Translations under genes and position numbers: made by a program
From: an uncultured Erysipelotrichaceae bacterium
GTDB taxonomy: Bacteria > Bacillota_I > Bacilli_A > Erysipelotrichales > Erysipelotrichaceae
Direction of reading: 5' to 3'
Assembly (NCBI GenBank): GCA_944327105.1
Contig: CALVGN010000002.1
Location: 1-39,767 of the forward strand
DNA: 39,767 nucleotides
Notes under the pieces: model-generated
What the model saw: the letters and a program-made list of their open reading frames with translations, nothing else
What the model was told of the DNA's origin: nothing
Databases searched by the model: none
Shown here: positions 5,926 to 34,910 of the stretch, in pieces
How the letters are laid out: each line of letters begins with the position of its first letter
Position numbering within the stretch: the first letter of the stretch is position 1

Positions 5926-5931
5926 TATAAT
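5926..5931 (+). promoter_or_regulatory. -10 box of the PMT-family gene (leaderless candidate)
   Basis: TATAAT is followed after 7 nt by the ATG at 5939. A near-palindrome, ATGGTGAAACCAG, lies upstream at 5901-5913. No Shine-Dalgarno sequence separates the box from the start codon. Confidence 0.6.
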
Positions 5932-5938
5932 GGTGTCC

Positions 5939-7894
5939 ATGGAATTTTTCAGTGCTGAAGTTTTTCAAAACGGAATGATCATTCCTATCGTTATCGGAGT
6001 GGGATTGATCGTTTTTTGTTGTACGAAATGGTTGAAACCAAAAGATGCAATGGTTCAACCAAAGCCGATATTAAGAAAGTCTTATTTCATCAAACGGGCA
6101 ATACCAAACCAGAAGTGGGATGGATGGGATAAATATTTCGTGGTGATGTTTACTTTATGCTATGGCTACATCTCCATTCTTCAACTTGGTCATACCAAGA
6201 TCCCAACAACCTATTGGCAACCGCAAGACGCGGGAAGTGAAGTCATCTTCAAAGTGGAAGATGACGCTATTTATGATGCGATCATGTTGATCGGTGGTGA
6301 AGGCGACAATAACAATAATCCAACGACCTATCAGATCGGGATGGATGATATCGAATTATATGGTTCATATGACAATACCACCTATGATCTGATCTCGACC
6401 ATCAGCGACAGTGCATATATGCAATATAAAACCATTGCCGTGGATCAACCCTATCCCTACATCAAAATGGTGGTCCCAAATCGTAACAGTGTGGTCAATG
6501 AGATCGCACTGGTCAATACCACGGATGAAATGGTTTTACCAGTAAGCATCGTGCAGGATACGCCCAATGCGGCGTATCCTGCCACATTGTTGATCGATGA
6601 ACAGGATCAAATCGTTATTGATCCGAGCTGGCAAGATGAATCCTATTTCGATGAAGTCTACCATGTACGTAATGCCGTCGAGATCGTCAATGGTCAATAC
6701 ATGTATGCTTCGGTCCATCCACTACTTGGGACCAATATCATGGCTTTTTTCATTGCCCTATTGGGCAATCATCCTTTTGGATGGCGTTTTGGTGGATGGT
6801 TGTTTGGGGTATTGATGGTTCCCTTATTCTATGCACTGGCCCGTTCATTGTTGCGCAATCGGCGCTATGCGGCGATTGGCACGGCCTTGTTCTGTGTGGA
6901 TTTCATGCATATCACCACATCTAGGATCGCGACGTTGGAACCATTTTCTGTATTTTTCATCATGGGGATGTTTTATTTCATGATCCAATATCTGCATACC
7001 TCATTGGTAGATACCCCATTAAAAAAACAATGGATGTATCTATTGTTCTGTGGTTTGACCATGGGATGTGCTTGGAGTACCAAGTGGACCGGATGCTATT
7101 CATCCCTTGGTCTGGCCATTTTGTTCTTCATTCATTTTTTTGGTCTGATCAAGGAATATTGCATCGCACGAAAAAAGAAAAACGAACTGGTCTATGAAGA
7201 TGTGATCGAAGAACAATGGGTGGATATCGTTGTGACCACTTATCTTAAAAAGCTGGTCTTGACCATCGTCTTCTGTGTTGTGGTATTTGTGATATTGCCC
7301 ATATTGATCTATTTTGGTATCCACATTATCGATCATATCTGGCGGGATGGTTATTCCATTTCCAATATGATCGATCAAATCATTTACATGTATGAATACC
7401 ACATCGATCTTCAAGCTACCCATCCATTCCAAAGTCAATGGTATCAATGGATCCTGGATATCCGTCCGATCTGGTATTACATCAAACGAAGCAATGATTT
7501 AGCCAGCAGTATTTCCTGTTTTTCCAATCCGATCATCACCTGGAGTGGTTTTATTGCCATGTTTTACTGTGGGTGGTTACTGTTAAAACAACGCAATGAT
7601 GGTTTGACCATTACCTGGATCGCTCTGCTTACGGCATTGGGGCCATGGATGCTGGTGACCCGTTGTGTATTCAGCTATCACTTCTATCCTTCCACTCCCT
7701 TTTATATTTTGTTAGTGGTCTATATGTTGCGGGATATTGAACGAAAAAGCAAAAATACGAAAACCACATCCATTGTGGTTTGGACCAGTATCATCGTCTT
7801 CATTCTGTTTTTACCAGCCATCTGTGGATTCTGGACCACCCAAGATTATCTTAATGGTTTCTTAAGCTGGCTTCCCAGCTGGAATCTGAATTAG
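5939..7894 (+). CDS. PMT-family (GT39) membrane glycosyltransferase
   Basis: A 651-residue polytopic membrane protein of the protein O-mannosyltransferase family, which moves a sugar from a polyprenyl-phosphate donor to acceptors outside the membrane. The acidic pair of the first outer loop is seen in DESYFDEVYHVRNA near residue 236, followed by HPLLGT and GWRFGGWLFG, typical of the family. About ten membrane helices follow. Between the first two helices is an insertion of roughly 140 residues, rich in beta-type sequence, resembling a carbohydrate-binding discoidin-like domain. I start at 5939 rather than 5930 because the earlier ATG overlaps the -10 box. A second GT-C type gene follows 9 nt later, so the two probably work in one glycosylation pathway. 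Confidence 0.85.
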   Translation: MEFFSAEVFQNGMIIPIVIGVGLIVFCCTKWLKPKDAMVQPKPILRKSYFIKRAIPNQKWDGWDKYFVVMFTLCYGYISILQLGHTKIPTTYWQPQDAGSEVIFKVEDDAIYDAIMLIGGEGDNNNNPTTYQIGMDDIELYGSYDNTTYDLISTISDSAYMQYKTIAVDQPYPYIKMVVPNRNSVVNEIALVNTTDEMVLPVSIVQDTPNAAYPATLLIDEQDQIVIDPSWQDESYFDEVYHVRNAVEIVNGQYMYASVHPLLGTNIMAFFIALLGNHPFGWRFGGWLFGVLMVPLFYALARSLLRNRRYAAIGTALFCVDFMHITTSRIATLEPFSVFFIMGMFYFMIQYLHTSLVDTPLKKQWMYLLFCGLTMGCAWSTKWTGCYSSLGLAILFFIHFFGLIKEYCIARKKKNELVYEDVIEEQWVDIVVTTYLKKLVLTIVFCVVVFVILPILIYFGIHIIDHIWRDGYSISNMIDQIIYMYEYHIDLQATHPFQSQWYQWILDIRPIWYYIKRSNDLASSISCFSNPIITWSGFIAMFYCGWLLLKQRNDGLTITWIALLTALGPWMLVTRCVFSYHFYPSTPFYILLVVYMLRDIERKSKNTKTTSIVVWTSIIVFILFLPAICGFWTTQDYLNGFLSWLPSWNLN

Positions 7895-7903
7895 GGAGGC
7901 ATC

Positions 7904-9613
7904 ATGAAGCAACGCTTAATGGAGTTGATGGTTTTAACCATACTGGCACTGGCCGTCGTGACCGTTGGATTGAATGATTCTGTATTTATCGGCCATGATA
8001 CTCTATTTCATTTATCACGGATCGAAGGCTATGCGCGATCCATTGCCAATGGGCAATGGATCCCGACAGTCTATCCCTTTAAAAATGATGGATATGGATA
8101 TGGTAGTGCATTGTTCTATTGTGATTTTACGTTGATCTTGCCGGCATTGCTGTATTTAAATGGTGTTTCCATTTCCACGTGTGCCACGATTTATTTATTG
8201 GTCATATCCTGGATATCTGGCTATACCATGATGCGTCTGGTCAAAACATTGACCAAGAATCCGTTTACCCCTTATCTGGCTGTGATCCTGTATTTATTTG
8301 CCAATTATCGCTTGACCAATATGTATTGCAGAGGGGCTTATGGTGAAACCAGTGCCATGATGGCTTTACCATTGGTGATCGAAGGGATCTATCGTATCTT
8401 GGTATTGAAACAGTCGAATCATTATGCTTTGGCTTTTGGATTGATCGGATTGATTTTTACCCATAATATTTCATTTTATCTGACCATGGTGGTGATCATC
8501 CTACTCATGATGGTCTATACCATCAATGGTACCTTGATTAGACAATACCGATTATGGATCCCCTTATTCAAGAATCTATTATTGGCCTTTGGTGTGACCA
8601 TGGTCTTTACATTCCCCATGCTCGAGCAGATCTATCACACGGATTATTATCTGTCCTGGTATGGTTCAACCAGTGATTTAGGGGAAAGTGCATTGCCCTT
8701 GTGGTCCTTGTTCAATCCATTATCCGTTACTGCCGGCTATGGTTCCAATACGATGGAATATTACCAGATCATGAATACTTCATTAGGGTGGCTGACGACA
8801 TTGGCACCATTGGGATGGCTGATATTATCCTGGAAACATAATGGTTTAACCACATTTATCAAAACGATCACCCTGATCGGATATGGTTTATTACTGATCA
8901 GCAGCGGTATCATCAATCTGGATCTGCTTCCCTTTTTAAAGATCATTCAGTTTGCTTTCCGTCTCAATGGGATCGCATTGGTATTGTTGGTACCATCTGC
9001 GGCAATGGTCATCGCCAATCGATGGTATTCCAAAAAGATACTGATCCCATTGATGATTGGTTTGACCATCGTTGGAATCGGACATCAGATCCCCTATTTG
9101 AATGAAGGGATGCATATCGATTCGTCCACCGCTTATTCTGCATTGATCGATGGCACTCTGTTTGATCCGTATTATGGTGATTCATCCTATGTTCGTACTG
9201 AAGTGGCAGGAGCGGATTATCTGCCCATTGGCGGTCTCAATACCAAAGATGTGGGACATGATGTTTTTTTAAATGATGGTTCGACCATTGTTGCGGATCA
9301 ACGGATTCCCTATACGTTTACCATCTCATCCAATGGGATCGTCCATATCCCGCTCACGTATTACTATGGTTATACCATCTGTGATCTGATAGATAATGGT
9401 CCATCCTTTTGCAAACCCGTGGATAAGGATACCAATGGAATGCTGTTAGCATCATTGCATCAACCGGGTACCTATGTGATCGTCTATCAACCCACAGATA
9501 TCCAAAAGTTCAGCAAGATCGGTTCTGGTCTGACCATCTTCGGATTTGGTCTTTATCAAATCATCCAACAGATCCGTAAGCGAAACGTCCATTCCGTGAA
9601 AACGCTTTCATAA
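7904..9613 (+). CDS. Polytopic GT-C-like membrane protein
   Basis: A 569-residue protein with about 11 hydrophobic helices and a C-terminal outer domain of about 150 residues, ending in one more helix and a basic tail. GHDTLFHLSRIEG follows the first helix, as in the 6-pyruvoyl-tetrahydropterin-synthase-related and YfhO-like membrane proteins thought to be GT-C glycosyltransferases; the Asp and His there are plausible catalytic residues. The start has a clear GGGAGG site, 9 nt after the upstream PMT gene, so the two form an operon. Substrate unknown. The gene carries a perfect palindrome at 9276-9288 and a 2-bp-centre copy near its start. Confidence 0.75.
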   Translation: MKQRLMELMVLTILALAVVTVGLNDSVFIGHDTLFHLSRIEGYARSIANGQWIPTVYPFKNDGYGYGSALFYCDFTLILPALLYLNGVSISTCATIYLLVISWISGYTMMRLVKTLTKNPFTPYLAVILYLFANYRLTNMYCRGAYGETSAMMALPLVIEGIYRILVLKQSNHYALAFGLIGLIFTHNISFYLTMVVIILLMMVYTINGTLIRQYRLWIPLFKNLLLAFGVTMVFTFPMLEQIYHTDYYLSWYGSTSDLGESALPLWSLFNPLSVTAGYGSNTMEYYQIMNTSLGWLTTLAPLGWLILSWKHNGLTTFIKTITLIGYGLLLISSGIINLDLLPFLKIIQFAFRLNGIALVLLVPSAAMVIANRWYSKKILIPLMIGLTIVGIGHQIPYLNEGMHIDSSTAYSALIDGTLFDPYYGDSSYVRTEVAGADYLPIGGLNTKDVGHDVFLNDGSTIVADQRIPYTFTISSNGIVHIPLTYYYGYTICDLIDNGPSFCKPVDKDTNGMLLASLHQPGTYVIVYQPTDIQKFSKIGSGLTIFGFGLYQIIQQIRKRNVHSVKTLS

Positions 9614-9623
9614 ATTATTTGAT

Positions 9624-9689
9624 CTATTCCGTTTGACTTGACGGATTCGTGCTATTGTATAGATGCAATGTGAGACTCTTGAGTTTCAT
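9624..9689 (-). CDS. Possible 21-residue small ORF
   Basis: An ATG at 9689 follows AAAGGAGTAATACT and opens a 21-codon frame starting MKLKSLTLHLYN, ending TAG at 9624. It is convergent with the GT-C gene. I see no clear promoter between the upstream terminator and the start. Support is the strong ribosome binding site only. Confidence 0.22.
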   Translation of the reverse strand: MKLKSLTLHLYNSTNPSSQTE

Positions 9690-9727
9690 TAGTATTACTC
9701 CTTTCTACTTTCACAAAAGTGAAAACG

Positions 9728-9758
9728 AAAAGCGTATGGCTGACCACCGTACGCTTTT
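9728..9758. terminator. Bidirectional terminator between GT-C gene and EcsC gene
   Basis: Stem AAAAGCGTATGG / CCGTACGCTTTT with one G-T pair, a 7-nt loop and T-runs on both sides. It can serve the plus-strand GT-C operon and the minus-strand EcsC gene. Confidence 0.75.
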
Positions 9759-9771
9759 TGTTTCATTTAGA

Positions 9772-10672
9772 TCATTCAACTATAGAAATAGTATCTTTAT
9801 TAATTGTCTGCTGCGGATCAGCAAGAATCGATGTTTTTAATGTATCCTTCAATCGATCGCAGCACGGTTTAAATGAGAGATAGGTCAATCCTCCACCAAG
9901 CACGCCACCTACAACCGGTATTGCCTTTTTGAAGAATCCGGCAAACACGCTTTTGGTCATTTTGACACCAAACCATTGGGCAGTTTTTTTAACAATTGGA
10001 TAAATAGTTCCTTTTGTTAATGCAGCCTTGATCAATTGCTTCTCGACCCCTTTAGCTAGCGCATTGCATACACCAAGTAACGCATTCTTTGCTCCAGCAA
10101 CGCCATACATTGTTCCTAGACAAATGATCAGCACATTCATCGTCGTCGAATCCATTGCCTGTTTTTCTTCGGATACATCGATTTGTTGGAATCCGTAGAG
10201 ATAAAATAATTTCTGCGCAGCCCGCAGCATATATCCATAATATTGAATAATATCTGCCGGAATGGTTGCTACCATTGCAAATCCACCTGGTGCACCCAAT
10301 ACGGCCGCAATACCAGAGACACAGGTGCGTTCAAATTGGATGACCTGATCCGTGATCGGATCGAGTTGCTCAATGGTAATTCCTGCTTGAGCCGGTGTGG
10401 TAGCAATTGCTTTTTGAACCACGGATTCATCAAACCGTTGTTTCAATTCCGCTTCAAGGAACTCATTTCGATCGATCCGTATGCCAGGAACCCTTAATCC
10501 ATGAATGATGATGTCCTGAATATCGATTTTTCCGTCATCATTGATATCGACATAATCAAACGTATCGGACTTTAATTGATCAAATTTCTCAAGAGGGTTA
10601 AATCGATGACCCCCCCCCCGTCTCGGCACCTTTTTCTGTTGCCTTTGCTGACGCCTTCGTTTTCTTTTTCAT
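9772..10672 (-). CDS. EcsC-family protein, out of frame at a ten-G tract (phase-variable candidate)
   Basis: The only well-placed start is ATG at 10672, 5 nt after GGGAGG, giving a Lys-rich beginning MKKKTKASAKATEKGAETG. The frame then enters ten Gs (10610-10619) and stops at TAA 10600-10598. The long downstream frame, from 10629 (GTG) to 9772, is reached only if the tract has 9 or 12 Gs, giving about 299 residues. Downstream of the tract is an EF-hand/dockerin-like loop, DINDDGKIDIQD, likely Ca-binding. An EcsC-like domain follows, with glycine-rich helices (GAPGGFAMVATIPADIIQYYG). EcsC proteins are membrane-associated, with poorly known function. No iterated palindrome occurs here, suggesting later acquisition. 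I read this copy as OFF; a one-base error in the tract is the main alternative. Confidence 0.75.
10610..10619 (-). repeat. Homopolymeric G10 tract in EcsC gene
   Basis: Ten consecutive C on the plus strand, the longest G/C homopolymer noticed in the window, directly inside the 5' coding part. Slippage by one base joins or separates the ribosome-binding start and the EcsC reading frame. Confidence 0.9.
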
Positions 10673-10716
10673 AATTTCCTCCCTTATCACCAAATGCATT
10701 TTCTGCGACTTGAAAA

Positions 10717-11562
10717 TCATTGCTTAAACTGTTCCCGATAATCCCGAGGCGATACCCCCATGTATTGCCGGAACACAACGGCATAATAACTGCCCGATTC
10801 AAATCCGACCTGTTGAGCGATCAAACGGATCGGAAGATCGGTATCCTTCAATAGATCCAATGACTGAAAGACACGGTATTGGTTCCAATACGTCAATGCA
10901 CTGGTACCATAAGTCAAACCAAAATAGCGATCAAAATCACTACGGGACATATGATAGGCTTTGGCCCATACATTGATGGAAGCATCCGATGCATAATGAA
11001 GGTGGACCCAGCGGATCAAACCGCTGCGTCCGCTTTCATCACTGGCTTTGACCCATAAAGGTGTCATCATCATGGCATCGTATAAAACAGACCAAAGATT
11101 CATCATGGTTGAAACCACGGATAAATGATAGCGGGATTGGGTCGAAGTCAAAGAAGCCAGATGGTTCATACCATAAAGCAATGCTTCATCGTGAAGGATC
11201 CATATTCCCTGGCCCATCGTGAGCAATGGTTCGATATAACGATGATAGATCAATGAATCTTTATCTGGATTGATCAAAGAAGATTCAAAACGAATGATAT
11301 GGATCGAACCATGAGTATTCGAAACGATCCGATAATCCATTTCAGCACCGATCACGATCACATCTTCTTTTTTAAAATGATATTTTTGCTGATGTGCGAT
11401 CAATGTGGCTTCACCATCCATCAGATGGATCAACGTGATCCAGGGAGAACAGATCAATGGATGAAACAGTTGATCATCGTTGCACTTAAAAATACCCTGA
11501 TTAAAGGGAAAGTCATGGGACAATGGTTGAACCATCCAATGATCATAATCCAGCGTTTTCAC
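10717..11562 (-). CDS. AraC-family transcriptional regulator
   Basis: A 281-residue protein with an N-terminal cupin-like sensing region (HQKYHFKKEDVIVIGAEM) and a C-terminal double helix-turn-helix of AraC type: LIAQQVGFESGSYYAVVFRQ and GVSPRDYRE. The start I prefer is GTG at 11562. The open frame runs further upstream but passes through the groEL terminator hairpin, so longer forms are unlikely. TAAGAT at 11570-11575 with extended TG ends 7 nt before this GTG and there is no ribosome binding site, so the mRNA may be leaderless. Targets unknown; it lies just upstream of the EcsC gene on the same strand. Confidence 0.9.
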   Translation of the reverse strand: MKTLDYDHWMVQPLSHDFPFNQGIFKCNDDQLFHPLICSPWITLIHLMDGEATLIAHQQKYHFKKEDVIVIGAEMDYRIVSNTHGSIHIIRFESSLINPDKDSLIYHRYIEPLLTMGQGIWILHDEALLYGMNHLASLTSTQSRYHLSVVSTMMNLWSVLYDAMMMTPLWVKASDESGRSGLIRWVHLHYASDASINVWAKAYHMSRSDFDRYFGLTYGTSALTYWNQYRVFQSLDLLKDTDLPIRLIAQQVGFESGSYYAVVFRQYMGVSPRDYREQFKQ

Positions 11563-11569
11563 AAATAAA

Positions 11570-11575
11570 ATCTTA
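11570..11575 (-). promoter_or_regulatory. Extended -10 box of the AraC-family gene
   Basis: TGATAAGAT on the minus strand, 7 nt before the proposed GTG start. It is the same TAAGAT hexamer as in the groES promoter. Confidence 0.5.
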
Positions 11576-11587
11576 TCATTGCAATGA

Positions 11588-11624
11588 AAAAAGCGACAGC
11601 GTTTTGTAAGCGCTGTCGCTTTTT
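11588..11624 (-). terminator. Terminator of groESL
   Basis: Stem AAAAAGCGACAGCG / CGCTGTCGCTTTTT with a 9-nt loop and a T-run. It lies between the groEL stop and the AraC-family start. Confidence 0.85.
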
Positions 11625-11659
11625 CATTATTCAATGGTCAAACCAAACTTATGGATGGA

Positions 11660-34071: not shown

Positions 34072-34910
34072 CTATCCGATGCCGTGCCATTCCTGTTCTT
34101 TCTTGTAGGAATGCCTGTCATACCATGTACTCGATACAGCCGACATCCCACCATCGCAGACCAATGACATCCCGGTGATGTTTTTGGCCTTATCACCTAA
34201 CAGAAATAATACGGCATCCGCCACGTCTTCCCCGCTGCCATAGCGGTTCAATGGGGTATGTTTGAGCAAACTGTCGAAGTGATAAGACGTTATCGGATCG
34301 ACCGCTTTGACATATTGGACGATCTGCTCGGTCAGGATCGTTTTCGGGAAGCACCACGTTGCAACGGATATTCTGATTGCCATATTGCACGGCAACTTCT
34401 TTGGAAAGACAATTCAATGCAGCCTTGCAGGCACCATAGGCGGCTGCTCCATCCTCTGCGCCAAGGGAAGCCGTAGAACTGACATTAACGATCGATCCGC
34501 CACCGCCTTTGATCATATGCGGCAGTACATATTTCATCAACAGAAAATACCCGCGAAGATCGATACTGAAATGTTTGTCCCACAACTCGGCCGATGTGTC
34601 GATGATCTGCCCTTCCGGCGCTTGGAAATAGGCGCAATTGGCCAATAAGTCGATCCGTCCGAAATGGGCAATGGTCTTTTCGGCCAATGCGTTCAAGGAC
34701 TGCTCATCGCCAAGATCGATGGGAATGAAGATGGCTTCTGCCCCAAGCGCACAGAGTTCTTCCGCGCGTTACGCGCCACTGGAATCTAAATCAGCGACGA
34801 CGACTTTAGCGCCATTTTCAGCTAATTTTTGGCGATTTGGGAACCGTTCCCGCCGGCGCCTTTGCCGGCAGCTAAGGAAACGATGGCAACTTTGTCTTTA
34901 AGTCAATAAT
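34072..34910 (-). pseudogene. Short-chain dehydrogenase/reductase pseudogene
   Basis: Fragments of one NAD(P)-dependent SDR can be joined across frames: LKDKVAIVSLAAGKGAGG with GNGSQIA (cofactor site), KLAENGAKVVVADLDSSGA, ANCA, the SSTAS and YGACK catalytic block, and the end ITGMSLVCDGGMSAV. Lesions: no usable start codon, a lost A near 34825 (five A where six restore the frame), an in-frame TAA near 34770, and an extra A near 34350. Four defects make sequencing error unlikely. It was probably a carbohydrate or steroid-type dehydrogenase, but this cannot be resolved. Confidence 0.9.

Follow-up and report, generated by a model that had tools for sequence, protein, structure and literature searches.

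In the stretch of DNA analysed here (the window, 39,767 nucleotides from the genome of an uncultured Erysipelotrichaceae bacterium), a minus-strand gene starts behind a strong Shine-Dalgarno sequence, runs into ten consecutive Gs and is closed by an early stop, while a long open frame begins directly beyond the Gs. The question raised by this locus is whether the tract is a slippage switch by which the gene is turned off and on, or whether the gene is misread, dead, started elsewhere or rescued at the RNA level. The features of the locus are as follows:

10670..10672, minus strand: ATG start with a strong Shine-Dalgarno sequence (AAGGGAGG at about 10678-10685); its N-terminal length matches homologues
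10610..10619, minus strand: G10 tract, candidate slippage switch from its sequence, the run counts and the recomputed frames
10598..10672, minus strand: OFF frame at ten Gs, 24 codons and stop TAA, from the recomputed frames
9772..10609, minus strand: intact frame 3' of the tract, 278 codons and stop, PDC-S30/EcsC-like protein
10627..10629, minus strand: GTG, alternative start in frame at ten Gs, without a well-placed Shine-Dalgarno sequence
10513..10548, minus strand: single EF-hand-like loop DINDDGKIDIQD, residues 28-39 of the 285-aa ORF
10717..11634, minus strand: AraC-type regulator gene, directly upstream of the tract gene with a 44-base gap

Read along the minus strand, the order is AAGGGAGGAAATT-ATG (A = 10672), 53 bases counted from the ATG, G10, and then TCATCGATTTAACCC. 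At the assembled length, translation from this ATG yields MKKKTKASAKATEKGAETGGGSSI and ends at a stop at 10600-10598, after 24 codons and not after the 22 given in an earlier note on this DNA. The rest of that description was confirmed when the frames were recomputed: the Shine-Dalgarno start does run into ten Gs, and the long frame is joined at nine Gs, with the expected product of 299 aa, and at twelve (300 aa). It is also joined at six (298 aa). The products at the other lengths are short, namely 23 aa at G7, 32 at G8, 24 at G10, 33 at G11 and 25 at G13. A change of length near the start therefore switches an intact frame, from 299 aa at G9 to 24 aa at G10. The tract itself encodes Gly-Gly-Gly inside a variable, lysine-rich N-terminal linker of the protein, and extra triplets should consequently do no harm.

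The G10 run is likely to be a contingency locus, with phase variation by slippage. DNA polymerase slippage in replication would add or remove Gs. With nine Gs (or six, or twelve), translation from ATG 10672 would pass through the Gly-Gly-Gly linker into the full protein (299 residues at G9), and with 7, 8, 10, 11 or 13 Gs it would stop after 23-33 codons. The assembled state of ten Gs would be the OFF state. Cells would differ in making the PDC-S30/EcsC-like protein, through a change that we infer to be reversible and to affect expression.

The abundance of G runs across the genome bears directly on this reading. The genome comprises 1,614,838 bases in 59 contigs, is 97% complete, belongs to the GTDB family Erysipelotrichaceae and is the sole member of its genus in the comparison. 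G runs, counted from overlapping pattern matches, number 22 of six, 2 of seven, none of eight, 2 of nine and 2 of ten. The length distribution is bimodal, with only four runs of at least eight, all of them G9-G10, set against the G6 and G7 runs. In shuffles of the window, 0.25 G9 matches are expected on average, and extrapolation from G6 and G7 predicts fewer than 0.3 runs of at least nine in the whole genome; the probability of four or more ranges from 4e-9 to 1.5e-4 with the assumed decay. The G10 run is thus a homopolymer of slippable length that exceeds chance, and the four long tracts are a separate class in this genome. Each of the four is placed at a 5' end or in a candidate promoter spacer: two fall within 5' coding sequence, and the other two in promoter spacers that are certain or possible. 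The other three are:

G000:C26:22963-22971 (L037, L007): G9 just 3' of a signal peptide, gene start MSKKFCHALKVFFLCIMTALSSVS
G000:C12:9528-9537 (L036): G10 as promoter spacer, TTGACA-19-TACCAT
G000:C30:114810-114818 (L038:6811-6819): C9 as possible promoter spacer, TTGATT/TAAAAT with an 18-base spacer

At nine Gs the C26 gene meets a stop nine codons from the start of its tract, and at ten it is open to 116 aa, so that the assembly shows a second tract gene out of frame. The C12 promoter precedes a secreted protein of about 900 aa with a Big_2 domain; its spacer is 19 bases, and eight Gs would be needed to reach 17. The C9 tract lies about 80 bases 5' of a DUF4230 gene, and its assignment to a promoter is weaker because the region separates divergent genes.

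An assembly or sequencing error at a tract whose true length is fixed at nine, leaving an ordinary, always-on gene, is an unlikely explanation. The assembly is in 59 contigs, a single wrong base would produce exactly the same picture, and Illumina chemistry struggles with G tracts (PMC9187656). However, a tract of nine Gs would still be among the four outliers of the genome, and slippage would remain likely at a genuine G9. Moreover, an error leaves unexplained both the G10 spacer of a homologue and the promoter-spacer placement in relatives with its zero-count control, which are described below.

The state of the frame beyond the tract speaks to a second alternative, a fixed frameshift in a gene recently inactivated for good. 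In favour of a young pseudogene, the gene is out of frame as assembled, and the one strain in the comparison shows only the OFF form. Against this, the 278 codons 3' of the tract carry no other lesion and retain 58 of the 61 residues that are invariant in 39 homologues, from which it follows that the gene is not decayed, and a one-base change within a G run is easily reversed. Recent permanent loss is accordingly quite improbable. It is very unlikely that translation starts at GTG 10629, so that the tract alters only the level or the N terminus of the product. At ten Gs this GTG shares the frame of the long ORF and would give a 285-aa protein; yet the one Shine-Dalgarno-like stretch near it lies 12 bases off, compared with the very good one at ATG 10672, and the homologues have longer N termini, consistent with the ATG.

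By sequence, the product is clearly a member of the PDC-S30 candidate family, a phage-defence candidate in PADLOC, whose model matches nearly the whole protein (E 1.9e-90, positions 9-250 of 268). The label of a surface or defence gene, offered in the earlier note, is plausible. Its assignment to the EcsC family holds as a resemblance but is a weak label, as the Pfam score (PF12787) is 17.6 bits against a gathering cut-off of 30.4. The EF-hand/dockerin-like loop reported just after the tract exists and has been conserved among homologues; however, it is single and unpaired and reaches no Pfam EF-hand cut-off, its best score being 12.2 bits where 25.9 are required. Across 40 sequences, D39 of this putative calcium loop is invariant, and its ligand positions D28, N30 and G33 are conserved in at least 90%. 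The loop is followed by a helical, hydrophobic domain, and the AlphaFold model of the 285-aa ORF is all helical (pLDDT 73.5). No match for this model was found by Foldseek against the PDB at E<=0.001, none by a sequence profile search for the fold at E<=0.1, and nothing above cut-off in NCBIfam. The PDC-S30/EcsC-like protein is probably membrane-associated. In the literature searched, no functional test of PDC-S30 was found, and the open-access literature held no report of phase variation of EcsC proteins.

Within the window, no match to a minus-strand promoter consensus was seen in 9600-11000, and the tract gene may therefore be transcribed from further upstream. From the other side, a protein O-mannosyltransferase family gene (PMT, PMT_4TMC; 5930-7894, plus strand), followed by a 569-aa membrane ORF without a Pfam match, converges on the tract gene. 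Elsewhere in the window, an SDR-like ORF of 167 aa (34193-34696, minus strand) has an un-SDR-like C-terminal part and is possibly truncated or frameshifted.

A homologue of the tract gene in another genus (G002, L019), 34-37% identical, also has a G10 run, placed in its promoter: the layout is TTGACA-9-G10-TAATAT, with a spacer of 19 bases including the G10, 30 bases 5' of the ATG. No 5' G run of at least seven occurs in the 80 homologues from public genomes, nor in closer homologues within the family other than that of G002. This counts against a slippage switch, and it rules out phase variability as a general property of the tract gene. The tract looks like a local acquisition that would have occurred twice by two routes, as a coding run and as a promoter spacer. 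Although two cases are few, such a double acquisition would be the most specific hint that the gene gains from switching.

A DUF4230 gene lies close by in five of the 80 homologue loci: it directly follows the homologue in L133, L147 and L163, comes about 700 bases further on in L142 and lies upstream in L201. The PDC-S30/EcsC-like and DUF4230 genes are apart in the genome of the window, each with a long 5' tract, a striking coincidence that was noticed after the fact. A few genes neighbouring the homologues fit defence models, BrxL, ZorD and DpdE among them; no PADLOC match was obtained for the DUF4230 protein, the AraC regulator or the C12 secreted protein.

The placement of G tracts in relatives extends the comparison from single genes to the family. 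For 92 distinct tracts of nine or more Gs with enough flank, taken from family genomes, TTGAC starts no more than 18 bases upstream on the same strand in 21 cases and on the other strand in one. In the same stretches, the same-strand motif precedes none of 96 runs of G5-8 (Fisher P 8e-8) and 3 of 502 G4 runs (2e-15). Erysipelotrichaceae relatives thus have tracts of this kind placed as the spacer between -35 and -10. Of 392 phylum genomes, 34 have the pattern TTGACA-N0-12-G9, as do 18 of the 273 family genomes, and the reversed control pattern occurs in none of either set. Signal-peptide-like starts, called by a crude hydrophobicity rule, were found in 18 of 25 genes behind such promoters and in 12 of 98 other ORFs, with a P of 1e-8 that is optimistic because some of the 25 genes are paralogues. 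The window G10 is probably one case of a more widespread use of G-tract switches across Erysipelotrichaceae and further Bacilli, mostly at genes predicted to encode secreted proteins. Promoters with the pattern are seen in many Bacilli, and some genomes (G343, G490) have six or more such loci. Long homopolymers can slip both RNA polymerase and the ribosome, and the shift required here is +1; still, such an RNA-level effect, giving a low and constant proportion of full-length protein in every cell, is highly improbable, as it leaves the equivalent tracts in promoter spacers unexplained and no shift-stimulating element was noticed.

The differences in tract length among relatives separate gene copies or species; they are not differences among the cells of a single culture. 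Two copies in G181 (L087 and L089) have G9 and G10 with flanks 99% identical, and promoters that correspond to each other in G160 (10 Gs) and G002 (11 Gs) precede almost the same gene. Three paralogues in G024 (L068, L106, L107) carry G10, G10 and G11 about eight codons past the ATG, and just one of the three is in frame. MutS_I is absent from 39 of 192 family genomes, some of these absences being possible assembly gaps, and TTGACA-G9 promoters occur in 9 of the 39 against 6 of the 153 with MutS (Fisher 5e-4, phylogeny ignored). In the genome of the window a MutS_I gene was found, and MutS loss is thus ruled out as a cause there; its MutS would damp slippage and, like the GTG start, which could bypass the tract, counts against the switch. 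The phase variation proposed in the earlier note is nevertheless favoured by the excess of tracts at 5' ends, the second out-of-frame tract gene, the homologue with a G10 spacer and the intact conserved frame, all of which support it indirectly. As to the benefit of switching, escape from phage or from host- or envelope-directed pressure is a guess.

Slippage switches have been studied thoroughly in Gram-negative pathogens but seldom described in Erysipelotrichaceae and the Bacilli that neighbour them in animal guts. In the porA-type promoter of Neisseria a poly-G spacer separates -35 from -10. That layout is common to G000:C12, L019 and the promoters of relatives; the window tract differs in lying in coding sequence, where it forms no promoter spacer. 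Homopolymer contingency loci of Campylobacter, Helicobacter and Neisseria, many of them in envelope genes (e.g. PMC2823697, PMC8355987, PMC5084427), resemble the present ones in having G or C runs at coding 5' ends and in promoters, several per genome, but they are far more numerous than the four here and belong to a different phylum. Bifidobacterium breve UCC2003 offers a precedent in its sortase-pilus genes, which have intragenic G tracts: in this gut commensal, too, the coding sequence contains near its start a G run of about 9-12 whose length sets the frame (PMC9187656). It is an Actinobacterium with pilin genes and measured slippage, whereas the gene here is EcsC/PDC-S30-like and its slippage is inferred. 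In Candidatus Mycoplasma girerdii, repeat length varies in metagenome reads and several genes are mainly OFF, though its repeats are mostly dinucleotides, with only two homopolymers (PMC5476646). No paper on slippage switches in Erysipelotrichaceae or neighbouring gut Bacilli was found in the open-access literature. G-tract contingency loci are already known, and within that literature this gene and this clade appear new.

A broader proposal can be made tentatively, and we regard it as possible but doubtful. Gut Bacilli, in Erysipelotrichaceae and several other families, may have in common a repertoire of G-tract switches that has not been described before, consisting mainly of promoters with a G-run spacer (TTGACA-N8/9-C-G9..14-TA...T) before secreted proteins, favoured where MutS has been lost. 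Two members in the genome of the window would be the PDC-S30/EcsC-like gene and the DUF4230 gene, and a function in the envelope or in phage defence that has two parts might then be switched at two separate loci. With the TTGACA-N-G9 pattern, whose reversed control gives zero counts, slippage switches in these Bacilli can be tested directly in existing reads, and the family-wide G-tract promoters are a more interesting result than the window locus. If such switches are real, many "broken" genes and weak promoters in such genomes would be OFF states, secreted proteins would differ between cells of one population, and a candidate phage-defence protein would be under stochastic control.
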